Below are positions 38,917 through 48,903 of a stretch of DNA of 64,000 nucleotides, in pieces. Numbering within the stretch: position 1 is the first letter of the stretch; each line of letters opens with the position of its first letter. The stretch spans positions 1,260,572 to 1,324,571 of the forward strand of contig NZ_CP047945.1 of the NCBI RefSeq assembly GCF_014279795.1, in the 5' to 3' direction. A model generated the notes under the pieces. It did no database searches. It was given only the letters and a program-made list of their open reading frames with translations, and was not told the origin of the DNA. A program made the translations under genes and the position numbers. The stretch comes from Synechococcus sp. PROS-7-1. Its GTDB lineage: Bacteria > Cyanobacteriota > Cyanobacteriia > PCC-6307 > Cyanobiaceae.

Positions 38917-39115
38917 GTAGCGCTCTCTTGGAAATCCGAGAATGAGTTAATTTCTCGAAAAGAACTGCAGTAGTCAATACCTTTCAAGGAACATATTTCC
39001 TTTCCTGGGCGAACCAACATTGTGTTCATCATCAAAGTTTACGTGTTTCCGTTGCAACAAGCACAATTCCGAACGATTGAAAACCATTACCTTGAATTCA
39101 ACTGCTCAAGGATCA

Positions 39116-39322
39116 ATGGCTTCAATGCAGACACCCATGCATTCATCAGTAAAAAGCTCATTCACTGCCCCAGACTACGCAGGTGATTACTATGTTTGTG
39201 ATAACGATCACAACTGCAGAGTTGTCTCCAATTCCTGGATTGCCGAACAAACATCGAGATTGACAATGCATTATTCTCAATCGGTCTTAGAAGCCAAAGC
39301 ATATTTTATTATTTCTGAATAA
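39116..39322 (+). CDS. Small hypothetical protein, 68 residues
   Basis: The frame is longer upstream (to 39020), but the ATG at 39116 has an AAGGA three bases before it, and an ATG at 39125 is an alternative with better spacing. The product has a Ser/Thr-rich start and a central PDYAGDYYVCDNDHNC segment with two cysteines. It looks compact, with no signal peptide and no recognised family. Real-gene status rests on length and plausible composition only. Confidence 0.4.
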   Translation: MASMQTPMHSSVKSSFTAPDYAGDYYVCDNDHNCRVVSNSWIAEQTSRLTMHYSQSVLEAKAYFIISE

Positions 39323-39770: not shown

Positions 39771-40742
39771 TTATGAGCCAAAAAACCATCCATAACTATG
39801 CAAGCCGATACCGAGCAGGTTAACTCCGATGTAACAAACCACAATCACGACCAAACCCAAGGAAGCAACCATTGCCGGTCTTCGACCTTGCCATCCGCGG
39901 CTGAGACGAGTATGCAGGTAAGCCGCGTAAACCAACCAACAGATCAACGCCCACGTTTCTTTTGGGTCCCAGCTCCACCAGCTCCCCCAAGCCTCATTGG
40001 CCCAGACGGCGCCACTGATAATTCCTACTGTTAAAAGCAGAAATCCCACGGTGATGGTTCGATAGCTCAGGCTGTCGAGCTGTTCACTGCGACTGAAATC
40101 AAGCGATGACAACTGCAGCTCGGGAGACGTTTGCAAAGCAACGGAACTGTCATGCCCAGAGATCGCAACGGCTCTTCGAAAGGCACCAGTTCCGATCGAG
40201 CTGCTGCGTAGTTCCAGCTGTTGACCGCGATCCGTCACAAGAACAGCAACTGAGAGCAGAGATCCCACCAGTAGAGCGGCATAGCTCACCATGATCACGC
40301 TCACATGCATCACTAACCAGCTGCTACGAAGCGCAGGAACCAAGGGGGAGGCCTGCTGCAATTGATCAGGCAGGGCAAAGCTGGCAAAAGCGATACACCC
40401 CAAACCCATGGGTGTGGCAGATGCCGAGACAAGGGGTGAAGGCCACTGACGTTCCACTAGCAATTGGGTGAGCGTGCAAGCCCACGCCAGGAAGCAGAGG
40501 GATTCGTAAAGATTGCTGATCGGGAAGTGACCGGACTGCCACCAACGCAACACCAGCTGCGCAGTCAAGAGCAGATTGGCAAGGGCCAGGAGAGAGCGCA
40601 CGCCACTGGAGCTACGACCATTGGATAGGGCCCAAAAGCTCCACGGAAGGGCCGTGAGCAGCAAGGCAAACGCGGCCAATCCCAGCACCAGTACCGGCTC
40701 TGAAGCGATTGATTGCAGATCGAGACTCCCCAAAGCAGACAA
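39771..40742 (-). CDS. ccsA: System II cytochrome c biogenesis protein CcsA
   Basis: 323-residue polytopic membrane protein (about eight TM helices) that, with Ccs1/CcsB, delivers heme to the lumenal side and attaches it to apocytochromes c. The tryptophan-rich heme-handling motif [10 protein letters not shown] is at about 254-264. Conserved histidines are seen in [15 protein letters not shown] and the final LHSYGW. In thylakoids it matures cytochromes f and c6. ccs1 is not in the window. A long spacer follows its 5' end. Confidence 0.93.
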
Positions 40743-41104: not shown

Positions 41105-41758
41105 ATGCTTCTCAATTTGCCTCAGAAACTTCAGAACCTAAAGATGGTCGCGGCTGTTTCCAATTTTCTTGAGAAACCGGATCTCGATAATGTTTATGGG
41201 GTAGGGGCCAGCCTCCAGGGTTCTGAAATGTCGCGCCAAATGGGTCGACACTTAATGGAGAACCCGCGCTTCCGTGCTCTTGTTGAGGAAAAGTGGCGTC
41301 CACCTGTAGTTCGGCTTGACGAACTGCTGGCCATGCCAGATGGAAGTTTGGGACATGTTTATGCACATCAATTGTCCTCTCAGGGGCTTGATCCGGAAAG
41401 CACGATTGATCACTCTGAAATCAACTCAACGGCAAGTTATATCAAACACCGCATGCGAGAAACCCACGACATCATTCATGTTCTTACAGGCTTTGGTGTG
41501 GATGCATCAGGCGAAATGGGTGTTCTTGCCTTTGGCCTAGCTCAAAATCGACATCCATTAGCGGTACTTCTCATTCTCGGTTCGCTTCTTAAAGCGCTCC
41601 AGGAAGACGTTGATTTAACACCAATTTTACGAGCAATCAGCAAGGGCTTTAAGCTTGGTTTGGCTGCTCAGACAGCAGTAGCATTTAAACTGGAAGATGG
41701 TTGGCAGCGCCCAATCGAGGACTGGAGAGAAGAAATCGGTCTTCCTCGCAATCCATAA
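41105..41758 (+). CDS. Coq4-like protein, copy 1
   Basis: 217 residues with the Coq4 metal motif HDxxHx11E: H121-D-I-I-H125 and E137 in ETHDIIHVLTGFGVDASGE. NPRFRALVEEKWRPP and LAFGLAQNRHPLAVLL also match the Coq4 family. In mitochondria and proteobacteria Coq4 acts in ubiquinone synthesis, where it is credited with C1 oxidative decarboxylation. Cyanobacteria make plastoquinone instead, so this copy probably modifies another prenylated or aromatic substrate. A second copy lies 3.1 kb downstream. It has no signal peptide or TM helix. Confidence 0.8.
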   Translation: MLLNLPQKLQNLKMVAAVSNFLEKPDLDNVYGVGASLQGSEMSRQMGRHLMENPRFRALVEEKWRPPVVRLDELLAMPDGSLGHVYAHQLSSQGLDPESTIDHSEINSTASYIKHRMRETHDIIHVLTGFGVDASGEMGVLAFGLAQNRHPLAVLLILGSLLKALQEDVDLTPILRAISKGFKLGLAAQTAVAFKLEDGWQRPIEDWREEIGLPRNP

Positions 41759-41886
41759 CTGCCGTGTTCATGGAATGATTTGAATTTTCAATATTGGGAC
41801 TATCAGTTTTAATTCAACTTGCTTGGACAATATCCATTAAAAGTTTTATTGAGTGATGTAGAGGTTTGGTGTAAGCCTCGAGTTCA

Positions 41887-43449
41887 TCAGCGAAAGGGAG
41901 ACAGTTTTGAAAATTGACTGCCTATATAGCTTGTCCATCGTCGACCTCCTCTTGATTGCAATAAAAGAATGAAAAAAGCAAACATATACAGGGCTATGGC
42001 CAACACATAAAAGTCTCTATATCCATCAACAAAAGCAAGTTTTGCTGATGATATCAGTGTATTACGTTCATTCTCTGGCAAGGATTCAGCAACCCGAAAG
42101 GCTCCACCGATTGAGCCGGTCGCATTTAACTTCATTGACTCCCCCATACGAGAGAGTGTCTCGTTCATCATCGATGACAAATTGGTTGAAAGGACCAAAC
42201 CCGAAAGGGCAATACCTGTTGACAGACCGTATCGCATGACCATTGCATTCAGGGATGCACCGAAGCTCCTTTGATCTTCATCGTATGATGCTAAAACTCC
42301 ATGGACCATTATCGCTGGCTCAATTCCAGCACTACCGGAAAGAATGAAGCCAACGGTTAAGACAAATGGGTTAGGGCTTACACCGGCAAAACCGATTAAT
42401 CCATAGCCGATTGATGCAGTAATTAATCCCAACATTGCGAGCCGATATGAACCAATAGATTTGCTTAGTACTCCAGACAATGAGCTACACAGAATCCATA
42501 CAAGAGTTGCTGCTACAACGAGCAGAGCTGCCTTGAATGCCGACAAACCGACGACAAGCTGTAAATATTGCATATTGAGGAAGATCATGCCGCCATACAC
42601 CAACTGAACAATCCAGTTGATTCCTGTCGGAACTAGAAAAGATCGTTTGCGTAATTGTTTTAACTGAAATAAGGGATTTGAACATCGCGATTCATGGATT
42701 AAAAGAGTTATTAGTGAAAGAACAGAAATCGCGATCGAAAACACTGAAATAAATCGATTATTTGATTGGTTCGATAAATTCACTAAAAAGAGCAGGCTAC
42801 TGGTTCCAAATAGAGCTGTAAGAGTTGCTCCAATTTGGTCGAAGGAACGTGGTTTGCCTGTAGGACCTGCGCGCTTTGGTATTTCAGAACATACAATCAG
42901 AATTGATACAAGCAACAAAGGCGCTACAGATAATAACGCTGCTCTCCAGGAAACAGTTGTAATCAAATAGCCAGCAAGAAGAGGTCCAAGAAGACCACCG
43001 ATCGCTTGAGCTGCGGTGACAAGTCCTATAGCAGTAGGACGCTTGGATTCATCTACAACTTGGTATGCCAAGACAAGAGCAGAAGGCATCACGAGGGCAC
43101 TTCCCAGACCAGAAAAGGTTCGAAAAGCAATCAGCGTGTTCACGTCTAGGACCATCGAGGCGCCAACAGCCGACCCCATCAGGATTGACAATCCGATCAC
43201 GAGTACACGTCGAAAACCGTAAAGACTTGCCCAGTAGCCACCAAAAAGCATGAACGCTGATGCCGCCAGCGGTGTGCAATTCACAATCCAGGTAAGCTGC
43301 TCCGAATCAACCACAAACGCTTTTGAGATCGGAGGCAGCGCGACGCTGGCGACAGTTGTGTTAATCGCTACTGCAACATAAGCAAGTACAAGACCCCAAA
43401 AGGCAACAGGCATTTGAGGTAGAAGTCGCTTTGATGAAATCAAGTTCAT
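41887..43449 (-). CDS. MFS exporter, DHA2 (14-TM, EmrB/QacA) type
   Basis: 520 residues from MNLISSKRLLPQMPVAFW; the frame extends 24 codons upstream, but this ATG overlaps the preceding stop as ATGA. About 14 hydrophobic helices are seen. The early motif VAINTTVASVALPPISKAF is typical of drug:H+ antiporters, and YWASLYGFRRVLVIG is the loop 2-3 signature. The substrate is unknown; export of the island's product is an inference. It is translationally coupled to the peptidase-like membrane protein, so the two probably work together. Confidence 0.85.
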   Translation of the reverse strand: MNLISSKRLLPQMPVAFWGLVLAYVAVAINTTVASVALPPISKAFVVDSEQLTWIVNCTPLAASAFMLFGGYWASLYGFRRVLVIGLSILMGSAVGASMVLDVNTLIAFRTFSGLGSALVMPSALVLAYQVVDESKRPTAIGLVTAAQAIGGLLGPLLAGYLITTVSWRAALLSVAPLLLVSILIVCSEIPKRAGPTGKPRSFDQIGATLTALFGTSSLLFLVNLSNQSNNRFISVFSIAISVLSLITLLIHESRCSNPLFQLKQLRKRSFLVPTGINWIVQLVYGGMIFLNMQYLQLVVGLSAFKAALLVVAATLVWILCSSLSGVLSKSIGSYRLAMLGLITASIGYGLIGFAGVSPNPFVLTVGFILSGSAGIEPAIMVHGVLASYDEDQRSFGASLNAMVMRYGLSTGIALSGLVLSTNLSSMMNETLSRMGESMKLNATGSIGGAFRVAESLPENERNTLISSAKLAFVDGYRDFYVLAIALYMFAFFILLLQSRGGRRWTSYIGSQFSKLSPFR

Positions 43450-44741
43450 TTCACTGTCCCAGACAATTGCAATAGGCCAGAAATTGCCTGGGAGTATTTC
43501 AGCAATCCAGTCGTTGTCCATGCAAAGGAACGTGCACGAAATCGTATCGATGCTGCTTGCCAGAAAAGATCGTTCAATATCAATTTGGTTAACAGAAATC
43601 CATTGCGTTGATATTGTGAATACCAGGCACAGATGGCAGCATCCACAGCATCAACAACTGTTGTGCAGCAGTTCTGTCTAGTGATATGGTAAGTGAGCTC
43701 CTGGCGTGCATACTTTTGGTAATGTAGAAGTCTTTGATACGAATAATCTTCAATTAGGACTGTATGCGTTGGTTCACCCCGTAGTTCGAGATCATCCTTG
43801 AACGATATCCTCCAGCGTGCTGGCATTCGATAATGCTGATCCATACGTATTGCTCGTTTCATATTGGATGCACTGCTTTTGGATGGATCCATGTGAGCTA
43901 GATCATTTTGGGGACAAAAACTGATATAGACATCCGATCCACATTCCAGTGTTGCGTGATGAGCAGTTGGCCCAGAATTAGCACGATGAGGTGACAAGGT
44001 TGAAGTGAAGAAATTCCAGAGTTCAGCGATATAAGGATAGGGAACGATTTGCTCGCTCTCAGTGAGCCATATTCGAATCTTAATTGGAACTGGACGACCG
44101 TCATCTGCTCTTAGCGGGCCTAAATCATTCTCCGTGAATGATCCAGTTTTGAACATCGGAATCGCAGGATTAGTCAAACGTCCTCGGCGAACGATCACAC
44201 GAATACATGACAAAGAAAACACAATGAGCAGTATGGATAAAAATAAACGCGGTTTTTGATAATCGGGTATAAAATCAAATACAAAAAAGGCGCCTAGGAG
44301 CAGATACAGAAAACCTTTCAAACATTGTAATTGCCAACGCATTGGTCGTATCATTATAGAAAAGAGAACAAAAATAATGGCATTGATTATGAATATGACG
44401 CCAATAATTTCTCCCCAAAGCAAGTCGAACCATGCGCTAAACTGACTCATCCCAAAGAGCAAGGCAAGCGCAGTAAAGCCAATCAGAAAAAGTCGCGGTT
44501 GATTCAGGCGGGACCTCGTAAACGCTGCATTGGTCGGACGAAAAATCCCAATCCATAAGGTCGCCAGCAGAATTAACGCAAAGGCAATCGCTAACCAATG
44601 CACCAATAGATTTGGTTCAGCATTGATATGCAAGGCAAGGTAAATACCTGTTCCCATGCTTGCCAAGGCTATGATTCCTATCAGCAAGCGGTATCGAGAA
44701 ACACCACGAGCTCCTAAAAGGAGAGGGAGCAAATCGAGCAT
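43446..44741 (-). CDS. HdeD-like six-TM protein fused to a papain-like Cys/His domain
   Basis: 431 residues. Residues ~18-185 contain six TM helices with the short-loop pattern of HdeD/DUF308 proteins. The C-terminal ~230 residues are soluble. They hold HHATLECGSDVYISFCP (H262) and, 96 residues later, QNCCTTVVDAVDAAI (C358/C359). His before Cys, with the Cys opening a helix, is the order seen in circularly permuted papain-like (NlpC/P60, LRAT, DUF4105-type) enzymes. A membrane-tethered peptidase or acyltransferase is inferred, not certain. It heads the two-gene unit with the MFS exporter and is divergent from coq4 copy 2. Confidence 0.65.
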   Translation of the reverse strand: MLDLLPLLLGARGVSRYRLLIGIIALASMGTGIYLALHINAEPNLLVHWLAIAFALILLATLWIGIFRPTNAAFTRSRLNQPRLFLIGFTALALLFGMSQFSAWFDLLWGEIIGVIFIINAIIFVLFSIMIRPMRWQLQCLKGFLYLLLGAFFVFDFIPDYQKPRLFLSILLIVFSLSCIRVIVRRGRLTNPAIPMFKTGSFTENDLGPLRADDGRPVPIKIRIWLTESEQIVPYPYIAELWNFFTSTLSPHRANSGPTAHHATLECGSDVYISFCPQNDLAHMDPSKSSASNMKRAIRMDQHYRMPARWRISFKDDLELRGEPTHTVLIEDYSYQRLLHYQKYARQELTYHITRQNCCTTVVDAVDAAICAWYSQYQRNGFLLTKLILNDLFWQAASIRFRARSFAWTTTGLLKYSQAISGLLQLSGTVK

Positions 44742-44795
44742 GAATCGTGTCTAACCAAATCAATGCTAGCTACAAAATTTATTTTTACCATTTTC

Positions 44796-44824
44796 TTGGC
44801 AATCAATACACTTCTGACTATGCT
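44796..44824 (+). promoter_or_regulatory. Near-consensus sigma-70 promoter for coq4 copy 2
   Basis: TTGGCA, a 17-base spacer, then TATGCT. Transcription would start near 44831, leaving about 15 bases before the ATG at 44846. This argues for the ATG at 44846 rather than the open frame from 44747, which would begin upstream of the promoter. Confidence 0.6.
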
Positions 44825-44845
44825 TGGAATAATTGTTTTATCCAG

Positions 44846-45502
44846 ATGCTTTTCAACCTCGACAAAAAGGCTCAAGCCCTGAAGATGGTTGCCGGATTAT
44901 CCAAATGGATGAAAAATCCAGATGAGCTGGAGAACGTTCGTGCGGTAGCAGGAAGCCTTCGTGGAACTAATTTATTTGCACAATCAATGGCACATCTATT
45001 GAGCCATCCACGCTTCAAGGCGCTTGCAGATGAACGTTGGAGACCTCCTTCCAAATCCCTTAAGGAACTTTCATTGTTACCCGTTGGCTCCCTAGGTAAA
45101 ACCTATGCTGACGAATTGATCAAGCAAGGTTTCTCGCCAGACGAGTTAATGGACAACGGAGAAGTGACAGATCTAAAAAGCTTTGTCTCCCATCGACTCC
45201 ATGAAACACACGATATAATCCATGTTTTGACAGGTTTTGGAACTGATCTCGTTGGTGAGATGGGCCTTCAGGCCTTTGCATTAGCGCAAAACCGTGCACC
45301 GCTTGCTGTTCTTTTAATCTCGGGATCACTTCTACGTGCATTGCAAAATGATGAACCCCTTGAACCTCTGCTTAAGGCTATTAGTCACGGATTTGAGATG
45401 GGTTTGAGTGCTGATTTGGTTATTGCCTATAAATTAGAAGATCAATGGGATCTATCTGTAGAAGAGTGGAGAAAAGCTCTTGGTTTCAACGGTAGTAATT
45501 GA
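44846..45502 (+). CDS. Coq4-like protein, copy 2
   Basis: 218 residues, clearly paralogous to copy 1: MLFNLDKKAQALKMVAGLSK aligns with that protein's start, and HDIIHVLTGFG is identical. The metal motif is H122-D-I-I-H126 and E138. Copy 2 is as complete as copy 1, so both may be active, perhaps on different substrates or as a heteromer. The shorter start was chosen from the promoter position and the match to copy 1. It runs convergently towards the MNIO partner gene with a 51-base gap. Confidence 0.8.
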   Translation: MLFNLDKKAQALKMVAGLSKWMKNPDELENVRAVAGSLRGTNLFAQSMAHLLSHPRFKALADERWRPPSKSLKELSLLPVGSLGKTYADELIKQGFSPDELMDNGEVTDLKSFVSHRLHETHDIIHVLTGFGTDLVGEMGLQAFALAQNRAPLAVLLISGSLLRALQNDEPLEPLLKAISHGFEMGLSADLVIAYKLEDQWDLSVEEWRKALGFNGSN

Positions 45503-45553
45503 ACTGTAGACGTCAATTTTGATTCTTTGTTATAAAGACCAATGAGGCTCGAC

Positions 45554-46414
45554 TTACTTCAATTCATCCTGTAGATCCACGATAATGCCTTCAATTATTA
45601 ATTGATGAACAAGATTGATTGTATCTAAATCCGTATAGTTGAAATAACTACCTTCGTGCTTCAAAGAAGCAAGCGTATGTGTTCCATCACAATGGTTTAG
45701 TAAAAGTGTTTCTTGATGATTCAAGCGACGGACTATGACTTGATTGTCGAAGTCAGAAAAAATCAAAAATGTTGCTGTACCACCCTCAACCATTGGCAAG
45801 CGGTGATGTTCCGAAGCATCAGTTCCCACAAGCTCTCGGAGTGCTTGTAAGTCAACACCTGATATGCACAGTCTTGAACCTCTATTCAGTCTTGGGCGCG
45901 CCCAGATATGGCAACGATGCTGCAGTTCTTGTATGAGCATTTGTACGGGTTTACGATTGCGGGATGGCGCTAAACGTGCCCACAAGCATCGCCAATCAAG
46001 CATGCCAGCTGCCAATAACATTTGAGGGAAATTGACATTTGCAATATTAATGCTGTAGGTGGCCGATAATGAATCAAGGGTTTCCTTGTCTATGCACCCT
46101 AAAAATGAAGCAAATTCAGTCGCTAATGTCTGAGCATTAAGAGGTTCTCCTGGGGACGAGATGTAAAATTTTTCGAGAAGCTTCTCAAACGCATCGGCAC
46201 CGATCAGCCACCGCACCGTCTTGAAAACATCGTGCAGTGGGTCGACAGTACGAGCCATCGCTCGATGGAGGTAAATATTGAGGATTTCTTCAGCGTCTGC
46301 AAATCCCTGTGCAGGAATAATTTGATCAACGAGCCATGGTGTTGGTTCTCGGTGCAGACTCGCCAAGAATTGCTGTTGAAGACGCAAAAGTTGGGGTGAT
46401 TTCATCTCAAGCAA
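45554..46414 (-). CDS. DUF2063 (HvfC/BufC-like) MNIO partner with PqqD/RRE-like C-terminus
   Basis: 286 residues in two parts. Residues 10-110 fit DUF2063, partner proteins of MNIO oxidases: LQQQFLASLHREP, then ILNIYLHRAMARTVDPLHDVF. The last ~70 residues (213-283) resemble the PqqD-type RiPP recognition element: VRRLNHQETLLLNHCDGTHTL followed by LVHQLIIEGIIVDL. In related systems such partners bring the precursor peptide to the oxidase. It lies 150 bases downstream of the MNIO gene on the same strand, separated by a perfect inverted repeat. The DUF2063 part is fairly sure; the RRE call is by eye. Confidence 0.75.
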   Translation of the reverse strand: MLEMKSPQLLRLQQQFLASLHREPTPWLVDQIIPAQGFADAEEILNIYLHRAMARTVDPLHDVFKTVRWLIGADAFEKLLEKFYISSPGEPLNAQTLATEFASFLGCIDKETLDSLSATYSINIANVNFPQMLLAAGMLDWRCLWARLAPSRNRKPVQMLIQELQHRCHIWARPRLNRGSRLCISGVDLQALRELVGTDASEHHRLPMVEGGTATFLIFSDFDNQVIVRRLNHQETLLLNHCDGTHTLASLKHEGSYFNYTDLDTINLVHQLIIEGIIVDLQDELK

Positions 46415-46499
46415 GCATTAGAAGGGTGGTTGGGTTCTGTGACTATGACCTGAAAGCAATAAGCTAGGATTCAGGATGTATGTGGTAAATGTTGTGAGT

Positions 46500-46532
46500 T
46501 CTGTCATTGTCCATAATATGGACAATGACAGA
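46500..46532. repeat. Perfect 15-bp inverted repeat between MNIO and partner genes
   Basis: Left arm tctgtcattgtccat, spacer aat, right arm atggacaatgacaga: 15 of 15 pairs match. It lies 32 bases beyond the MNIO stop and 86 bases before the partner's start. No T tract follows on either strand, so it is not a standard terminator. An operator, an attenuating hairpin or an mRNA-processing stem is possible. Confidence 0.7.
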
Positions 46533-46564
46533 TGATATGGTCACAATTTAATTGTTTCTTTGTT

Positions 46565-47452
46565 TCATAATGCACCTGATGTTATAGATAACTCGTCAAG
46601 GCAACGACGGATGCGGTTGACTTCCTGGAGTGTACGTTCAAGTGGTGGGACATGGTTCTCCCATTCCAACAAAGTTGGCCAGGCACCAAAATATCCAAGC
46701 GCTTTTGCATACAGATCCCAAACAGTTTCATGAACTGCCTCGCCGTGATAGTCAATGTAAACTTCACCGTTGCCAACCTTCTGTCGGGTGCATCCTGCAA
46801 GATGGTAACCACGGATGCTGTCTTGGCGATACTGCATCAACTGTGTGAGCGGGTCATCGCCAAAATTGACTGCATTTGCCCAGAGGTTGTTAACATCCAT
46901 CAATACATATGAGCCTGATCGTTTGGTTAACGCATTGATGAATGAGGGCTCATCATAGGTTGAGTCTCGAAAACGCATGTAACTGCTGATATTTTCGAGC
47001 AATATGGGCTGTCCGATTAATTCTTGAGCCTGATCAATACGTTCCACCATATAGTCGAGAGTCTCATCATTCATTACCAATGGAAGCAAATCGTGGAAGT
47101 GATGATGCGATAGTGAGCTCCAAGAGACATGATCAGAAAAAACGGCCTCGGGATGTTCCTTTAAGACCTGCTTCACAAGCTGCAGATAGTCCTGATCCAA
47201 AGGGGCACATGAACCTAAGGACAAACCGAAGCCGTGGAGGATAATGGGATAGGCGTGCCTCAGGTCATCCAGCTGGTCACGGTACGTGCCACCTTCCTCT
47301 TGAATCAGATGTTCTGGATGAATCTGCAGAAAATCCAACGATGGCCTCTGATGCCAAACGTCCGATGCATTTTCATGGCAGAGGTTCAGTCCAGCAGATG
47401 CTCTCGGAAGACCGGTGGACAATGGTGACAGTGTCGTCGTTGTTGACTGCAT
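46565..47452 (-). CDS. DUF692 multinuclear non-heme iron oxidative enzyme (MNIO)
   Basis: 295 residues spanning the whole MNIO TIM barrel. Family motifs with likely metal ligands are LHGFGLSLGS (H73), SDHVSW (D107, H108), LLENISSY (E153), LMDVNN (D186, N188), YHLAG (H217), DYHGE (D234, H236) and LLEWEN (E263). Known MNIOs (MbnB, TglH, bufferin enzymes) oxidise cysteines or other residues in precursor peptides with Fe2/Fe3 clusters. Here the usual SEHLSW has Asp instead of Glu, a conservative change. The partner gene is next, but no precursor was found nearby. It has a plausible own promoter. Confidence 0.9.
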   Translation of the reverse strand: MQSTTTTLSPLSTGLPRASAGLNLCHENASDVWHQRPSLDFLQIHPEHLIQEEGGTYRDQLDDLRHAYPIILHGFGLSLGSCAPLDQDYLQLVKQVLKEHPEAVFSDHVSWSSLSHHHFHDLLPLVMNDETLDYMVERIDQAQELIGQPILLENISSYMRFRDSTYDEPSFINALTKRSGSYVLMDVNNLWANAVNFGDDPLTQLMQYRQDSIRGYHLAGCTRQKVGNGEVYIDYHGEAVHETVWDLYAKALGYFGAWPTLLEWENHVPPLERTLQEVNRIRRCLDELSITSGAL

Positions 47453-47518: not shown

Positions 47519-47648
47519 CGTTTGCGCACCCCTCAATTGACTGAAAAGTCAAACTTCAACACCTTTTATTGATTTCACGACCAACCTGCTGACGCCAAAG
47601 GGGAAGAAACCGAGCCCTACAACTCAGACCAGGCAACGCGGTGGGCAT

Positions 47649-47675
47649 CTCAGCAGACAACCGTCGTCTGCTGAG
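47649..47675. repeat. 10-bp inverted repeat downstream of lptF/G
   Basis: ctcagcagac and gtctgctgag with a 7-base loop, about 60 bases past the lptF/G stop. It could end the long minus-strand lpt transcript, but no T tract is present on that strand. The surrounding 280 bases (47453-47736) hold no other convincing feature besides the MNIO promoter. Confidence 0.4.
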
Positions 47676-47736
47676 GCCGCTTGGCCAAGTTCTCCGACAT
47701 CCCCGACAAATCACTGTTTGCCGAGACAGGTGTGCA

Positions 47737-48903
47737 TCAACGACTAGCTTGCCTCAACAACCATCCACCACCAGCCAGTGAAATCAAAACAGGAATCCAA
47801 GCTGCCATCAGCGGGGGAAGGGTGCCCTTCACTCCTAACGAGCTGAAGCTGAAACTGAGCACGTAGTACACAAGAATCAAGACAACGCTGATCCCGAAGC
47901 CCTGGCTACGACTCGTGCGGCTGTTTGGCTTGGCGCCCAAGCTGGCCCCGATTAGGCCAAAGACCAGGCAGGCCATCGGCAGAGTGAACTTTTCCTGAAT
48001 TCTCACTTGTAGCCGTCGTGCTTCTTTGATGTCACCAGCTTGCTCCAGCAAATCTCTGGCACGAAGCGCTTCAGCAACCGTCATATTGTTCGCATCCTTC
48101 GGCAACTGCGCGATCCGGATTGGAGCCGCGCTGAGTGGATAGAGATACTGATCAAAATCAGCCGATGTTGTACTTCCAGACGGCGTCAGCGTAAGAATCT
48201 GTCCATCGAAGAACTGCCATTTTGCTTGGCTTTCGTTCCAAACAGCACGATCAGCCACAAGCATTTGGGTGAATCCAGCACGGGTGAAATCGAGAACAGT
48301 GACTCCGCTCATCACGCCATCCAGGAACTGCCTGGCATAGAACAGCTGGGCGAGTCCCTTGCTACTGCTGCCATCGGGGTCCTCAATACGACCAAATCGG
48401 GAGTACACAATGTTGCTTCCTTTTTCTGTAGCAATGGCTTTTCCGAGAGCACGACGCAGGGTGATCTCGGCAGAACGATTGGCTCGGGGCACCACCACGT
48501 CGTTGAAGACGAAGGTGAGGCCGGACATCAGCAGCGCCACGACCAGAGCAGGCACGATCATGCGCGTTGCGGTGACCCCAACACTTCTCAGGGCAGTGAG
48601 CTCACTGTTGGCTGACAGACGGCTGTAGGCCAATAGCGAGGCCATGAGGGTTGCCATCGCAAATGAGATCACCAGAAAGCTGGGCAGCCTGAGCAAGAGC
48701 ACTTGCACAGCGATGGCGACAGGAAGATTTGACTCAACGATCTGACGCACCAGTTCGAACATCACCCCCACCGAGAGAGAGACCACCGTGAAGGCGGCAA
48801 TCGCGAAGAGCAGGGGACCGAGAAGCTCGCCGATCAACCAACGATCCAACAGAGGGATCCGTTGAATGAGCCGTCGGATGGAAAGCCTGATGGATTCGTT
48901 CAC
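47737..48903 (-). CDS. LPS export permease, YjgP/YjgQ (LptF/LptG) family
   Basis: 388 residues with an N-terminal pair and a C-terminal set of TM helices around a periplasmic beta-jellyroll, as in LptF/LptG. FELVRQIVESNLPVAIAVQVLLLRLP and AYSRLSANSELTALRSVGV (the coupling-helix region) are family hallmarks. With LptB it extracts lipopolysaccharide from the inner membrane. Cyanobacteria often have one such gene, perhaps acting as a homodimer, so F or G is not chosen. Its start overlaps the lptB stop in an ATGA. Confidence 0.9.
   Translation of the reverse strand: MNESIRLSIRRLIQRIPLLDRWLIGELLGPLLFAIAAFTVVSLSVGVMFELVRQIVESNLPVAIAVQVLLLRLPSFLVISFAMATLMASLLAYSRLSANSELTALRSVGVTATRMIVPALVVALLMSGLTFVFNDVVVPRANRSAEITLRRALGKAIATEKGSNIVYSRFGRIEDPDGSSSKGLAQLFYARQFLDGVMSGVTVLDFTRAGFTQMLVADRAVWNESQAKWQFFDGQILTLTPSGSTTSADFDQYLYPLSAAPIRIAQLPKDANNMTVAEALRARDLLEQAGDIKEARRLQVRIQEKFTLPMACLVFGLIGASLGAKPNSRTSRSQGFGISVVLILVYYVLSFSFSSLGVKGTLPPLMAAWIPVLISLAGGGWLLRQASR

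Follow-up and report, generated by a model that had tools for sequence, protein, structure and literature searches.

Between ccsA and lptG, with lptB also on the lptG side, the window (the whole 64,000-nucleotide stretch of Synechococcus sp. PROS-7-1 DNA that we analysed) carries an AT-rich inserted segment of about seven kb, Table 1. Its six genes, all intact, encode two Coq4-like proteins (A and B), an MFS transporter, a membrane protein, an MNIO and the DUF2063-RRE partner of the MNIO. The GC content of positions 41105-47452 is 0.445, compared with 0.567-0.570 in the flanks. Improved starts were obtained for the MFS (43449), Coq4B (44846) and DUF2063 (46405) genes. The start of the MFS gene and the stop of the membrane protein gene overlap by four nucleotides, ATGA (43446-43449), as they do in WH7803, so the two proteins are probably translated together.

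Table 1. Features of the inserted segment and its flanking genes, in positions of the window.
Feature	Position	Strand	Description
ccsA	39771-40742	-	flanking gene
AT-rich inserted segment	40743-47736	.	between ccsA and lptG; about seven kb
Coq4-like protein A, 217 aa	41105-41758	+	PF05019 74.9 bits; HDxxHx11E metal motif; dN/dS 0.05
MFS transporter, DHA2-like, ~520 aa	41887-43449	-	MFS_1 139.5 bits
Membrane protein, 431 aa	43446-44741	-	helical N-terminal half; putative C-terminal Cys/His domain (H262, N357, C358), possibly Lnb_N/DUF4105-like
Coq4-like protein B, 218 aa	44846-45502	+	PF05019 73.8 bits; HDxxHx11E metal motif
DUF2063 + C-terminal RRE domain, MNIO partner (PME-type 1)	45554-46405	-	PF09836 52.2 bits; AF2 pLDDT 83
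MNIO (MbnB/TglH/ChrH family), BufB-related	46565-47452	-	PF05114 299.8 bits
lptG	47737-48903	-	flanking gene

Within the genus the whole block is found only here and in WH7803 (G002), at the same position and in the same gene order. In all eight other genomes of the genus that were examined lptG directly abuts ccsA, and among these genomes the site is therefore no general hotspot. Strong purifying selection acts on the five of the six genes with measurable dS, whose dN/dS between the window and WH7803 is 0.03-0.07. The membrane protein evolves faster than these five, with a dN of 0.22 and a saturated dS. The shared place and order and the low dN/dS show that the island has been maintained as a unit and is not debris. 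Together, the observations support one discrete insertion that was inherited intact by two species. A phage origin was considered and rejected, as the MNIO has no relative in viral contigs.

A first-pass annotation, made by a model from the letters alone, had listed the same six genes in A/T-richer DNA between core genes, and both statements hold: the two Coq4 proteins, MFS_1, DUF2063 and the MNIO all score over their Pfam cut-offs, the RRE domain is recovered by fold matches, and the A/T-richer DNA is flanked by ccsA and by lptG/lptB. It had also proposed to compare gene order across genomes for co-occurrence beyond chance, which the block in WH7803 and the empty sites elsewhere bear out.

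Two small features were seen at the locus. Between the MNIO and DUF2063 genes there is a perfect 16-bp inverted repeat with a 1-nt spacer and no T run (46500-46532), missing from the WH7803 island. Between rpe and ccsA, in a GC dip (45.7%), a small ORF (39020-39322) has a C-D-x-D-H-x-C-R motif that is kept in other genomes of the genus (L142 7861-8079, L143 3665-3895, L149 10555-10794); it is probably a real uncharacterised short protein.

Both island Coq4 proteins belong to the Coq4 family, having the PF05019 match and the metal motif that they share with COQ4 of ubiquinone biosynthesis. They differ from the latter in their host, a cyanobacterium, which makes plastoquinone and not ubiquinone, and in their number, as 29 of 31 genomes of the genus have Coq4 genes, about three each and in many contexts. 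COQ4 has been reported to catalyse oxidative decarboxylation at C1 (PMC11495197). The transporter is a general MFS_1 protein; against the DHA2 efflux family TIGR00711 it scores 130.9 bits, below the cut-off of 230.2.

For the membrane protein, Pfam gave no significant match and the PDB sequence search chance hits only, and the structure model is poor (pLDDT 50). Homologues are limited to three of the 400 family genomes and to four loci, two of which are the orthologous island. At every locus found, a Coq4 gene is no more than about 3 kb from the membrane protein gene, and an MFS gene is beside the latter in two of the three contexts; at the second WH7803 locus the two are coupled in the order reverse to that of the island. 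All four family members retain H262 and N357-C358, and two of the four have subthreshold matches to Lnb_N (PF13387)/DUF4105, best E 0.15. The invariant His and Asn-Cys and these weak matches suggest a Cys/His enzyme domain, and the first-pass description of a membrane protein with a peptidase-like Cys/His domain is no more than plausible. A likeness to Lnb/DUF4105 membrane proteins would lie in this motif and the weak matches in homologues, whereas nothing in the family is over the cut-off and the window's own member has no match.

The MNIO is a clear member of the PF05114 superfamily (cut-off 25 bits), and can be aligned to MbnB and to 3bww, a DUF692 structure (E 2e-49). Residues E153, D187, H217, D234, H236 and E264, among which we take the iron ligands to lie, match MbnB/HvfB-type motifs and are intact. 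Against the BufB equivalog NF050167 it scores 268.8 bits, below the cut-off of 310, and its scores against the HvfB and MbnB profiles are far under their cut-offs. The predicted fold of the partner matches NGO1945 (3dee; Z 15.0, rmsd 2.9, 195 aligned residues), TglI (8hi7; Z 12.1) and the RRE domains of TruD and PqqD (Z 7-8). Its layout, a DUF2063 domain followed by an RRE domain, is that of the bufferin type.

The MNIO clade, with 57-88% identity to the protein of the window, is rare and was found in two of 31 genus genomes and nine of 400 family genomes. Outside the island its MNIO and DUF2063 genes stay paired, without the island's Coq4A, Coq4B or membrane protein. The G147 MNIO is a fragment. 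The MNIOs of G208 and G284 (L033:8196-9077, L030:8297-9178) carry substitutions in the conserved metal site (D187 to N; H236 to R or N).

The island may be divided into two modules, the MNIO with its partner (module 1) and the Coq4A, MFS, Lnb-like membrane protein and Coq4B genes (module 2), which would be a separable unit. Elsewhere the module 2 set (Coq4 and membrane protein, mostly with MFS) and the MNIO/DUF2063 pair sit at separate loci, and outside the island the membrane protein is nowhere found with an MNIO. WH7803 also has a second cassette (L026:8414-13750), consisting of MNIO, DUF2063, flavin amine oxidase, MFS-like protein and Coq4, between clpX and clpP, names that are our reading of the flanking ORFs. 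The same five-gene cassette is present in G083. Its Coq4 is only about 30-35% identical to the island Coq4s. A chance linkage of Coq4 and MNIO is unlikely, about 1% by a rough estimate of ours that takes some three Coq4 genes per 2.5 Mb genome and ignores clustering in islands. The two modules may work together, since Coq4 and MNIO share two different cassettes.

The alternative that a variable lptG-ccsA site simply gathered unrelated genes would fit the AT-rich DNA and the separate existence of each module, but it has to account for the empty site in eight other genomes, for the identical gene set and order in two species with low dN/dS, and for the second cassette that again joins Coq4 and MNIO. 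We regard chance co-location as distinctly unlikely.

The steady partner of the MNIO pair lies outside the island and is a giant multicopper oxidase of about 1,500 residues (about 1,450-1,760). All four copper motifs of multicopper oxidases are present, most copies have a single Cys (the type-1 copper ligand), and the protein contains FG-GAP-like repeats and a conserved GFF C-terminus; inspection by eye showed no Sec signal peptide. The four copper motifs are shared with Thermus laccase, CueO and PhsA, whereas the giant oxidase is two to three times longer, lacks an obvious Sec signal, and is set apart by its repeats, its C-terminus and its linkage to the MNIO. In the window's genome the gene is about 350 kb from the island (G000:C1, about 952961-958237), at a locus that is common to this genome and WH7803. 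In both genomes a Cu/Zn superoxide dismutase gene is located downstream of the oxidase, here at a distance of 1.7 kb (L064:15953-16510).

The oxidase or its relic is present in all nine of the 400 Cyanobiaceae genomes that have this MNIO clade, while a full-length oxidase without the MNIO occurs in five of the remaining 391. The hypergeometric probability of this co-occurrence is 3e-15, uncorrected for shared ancestry. G011 and G004, close relatives of the two island genomes, lack both genes. In seven genomes (G083, G258, G270, G284, G098, G147 and, with a relic, G208) the MNIO adjoins the oxidase, in about four genomic contexts. The DUF2063 gene accompanies the MNIO beside the oxidase in genus g5, G083, G098 and G147, and beside the relic in G208; in G083 the oxidase also adjoins the five-gene cassette. 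G208, with its relic of the oxidase, has lost MNIO metal-site residues, whereas G284 has an intact oxidase and two altered MNIO metal-site residues. Among 386 genomes sampled across the phylum, only two outside the family, of one genus, have the oxidase, and in both an MNIO (53-55% identity) is divergently adjacent. No DUF2063 partner was found near the MNIO in these two, and a nearby MFS is 40% identical to that of genus g5; MFS genes recur by the MNIO/oxidase clusters. This association is the most interesting result, and it is correlational.

Two further observations concern the oxidase copies. The residue before GFF is S in all eight MNIO-linked Cyanobiaceae oxidases and T or V in the five unlinked ones. 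One MNIO-linked copy from outside the family ends in AGFF, so SGFF is no firm marker, and we rejected the idea that this tail marks an MNIO-modified oxidase. In G098 the same MNIO/oxidase cluster is found at both ends of one contig (C68) in inverted order (L031, L032), probably an assembly artefact.

Modified peptides are the products for which MNIO enzymes are known. In the known cases the chemistry is mostly on Cys, and some of the enzymes act on other residues. Aminopyruvatides and biphenomycin-like peptides are among the products (PMC12452194). Here, the MNIO and its helper travel with the oxidase through the cyanobacteria, so the likely client is a large protein system and not an exported peptide. 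The oxidase usually has only its type-1 copper Cys, and if it is the substrate the chemistry should hit a non-Cys residue. Direct modification is plausible. Most likely the MNIO and RRE partner would modify the oxidase chain oxidatively while it is still in the cytoplasm, at a residue other than Cys, and the oxidase would then be exported by a route other than Sec and work outside the cell with copper. That the pair is in this way a maturase of a large redox enzyme of about 1,500 residues is a tentative proposal, possible and somewhat doubtful. Against it, co-occurrence is no proof that the oxidase is the substrate, as both could simply be copper-responsive; five genomes have the oxidase without the MNIO, the known chemistry favours Cys, G284 combines an intact oxidase with an altered MNIO, and a DUF2063 gene is missing near the MNIO in both genomes from outside the family.

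The pair might instead process a precursor from another locus into a small copper-handling peptide, similar to bufferins or methanobactin, that would supply or buffer copper for the oxidase. The MNIO is closest to BufB, its partner is of the type typical of bufferins, and the oxidase is copper-dependent with a Cu/Zn superoxide dismutase gene nearby. Bufferins are copper chelators whose precursor genes are often unlinked (PMC12452194). We searched for a precursor by comparing all small ORFs around nine related MNIO loci, and found no conserved small ORF fit for this role, i.e. no identifiable precursor of the kind that defines a RiPP cluster. Two small ORFs were rejected: the only conserved intergenic one at these loci, which encodes an RlpA-like protein in genus g5, and a 4-Cys ORF at 47556-47714, which has no counterpart in WH7803. 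DUF2282 (PF10048), the bufferin precursor, has no match in the window's own genome and none beside the MNIOs of this clade. With DUF2282 absent, a bufferin system at the island was rejected. An unlinked precursor of a new type may exist, and the wider copper-peptide reading is, in our view, rather unlikely.

Elsewhere in the family, a bufferin-type pair of a DUF2282 precursor followed by a distant MNIO is found in G083 (L035, G083:C1:2296239-2297233), the sole strong DUF2282 match. The island resembles the bufferin systems (BufABC, Buf1/Buf2; PMC12452194) in its adjacent MNIO and DUF2063-RRE partner genes and the copper theme, but differs by the missing precursor, the lower MNIO score and the giant oxidase as constant companion. 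With HvfABC and MbnABC (methanobactin) it shares the MNIO family and the partner fold (matches to 3bww, 8hi7, 7dz9); it differs in having no precursor peptide that we could find and in the low HvfB and MbnB scores.

A third possibility is a single pathway of the six island genes and the unlinked oxidase: an aromatic or quinone-like compound would be made by the Coq4s and the flavin oxidase, coupled by the multicopper oxidase and exported by the MFS, with the MNIO maturing the multicopper oxidase. The Coq4 gene in both MNIO cassettes, the MFS genes in the oxidase clusters and the single insertion kept intact in two species are consistent with it. However, Coq4 is missing from the MNIO/oxidase clusters of genus g5, G098, G147 and g90, the Coq4s of the two cassettes are divergent, and the membrane protein keeps no company with an MNIO beyond the island. 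We consider such a pathway quite unlikely.

The reading that we prefer, and hold to be about evenly balanced between true and false, is that the island combines two functional modules in one block, with module 1 belonging to a wider copper-oxidase system centred on the giant oxidase. Module 2 would probably modify and export, or place, a prenylated aromatic or lipid-like molecule, a weak suggestion for which the substrate is deduced from Coq4 alone. The first-pass annotation had read all six genes as one biosynthesis-and-export system, and this survives in part: the block is heritable as one, Coq4 and MNIO meet again in a second cassette and an MFS recurs, while no peptide was found, the parts occur separately and the main partner lies outside. 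The modified and exported peptide that it placed at the centre is not borne out by the precursor search. Separate loci in other genomes, which it had named as evidence against linkage, are seen for MNIO/DUF2063 and for Coq4/MFS/membrane protein, and here too the outcome is mixed.

In the papers on MbnB/DUF692 that were searched, multicopper oxidases are not mentioned and modification of such an oxidase by an MNIO is not described, and the main text of the WH7803 exoproteome papers does not mention a multicopper oxidase. The survey of the MNIO landscape raises protein substrates (PMC12452194), and a term search of it found neither multicopper oxidase nor cyanobacteria. For WH7803, a CRISPR tool has already yielded loss-of-function mutants (PMC10651935). 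The constant link to the oxidase gives a concrete, testable protein client for an MNIO in this strain, and offers a route to the role of giant oxidases in marine picocyanobacteria.
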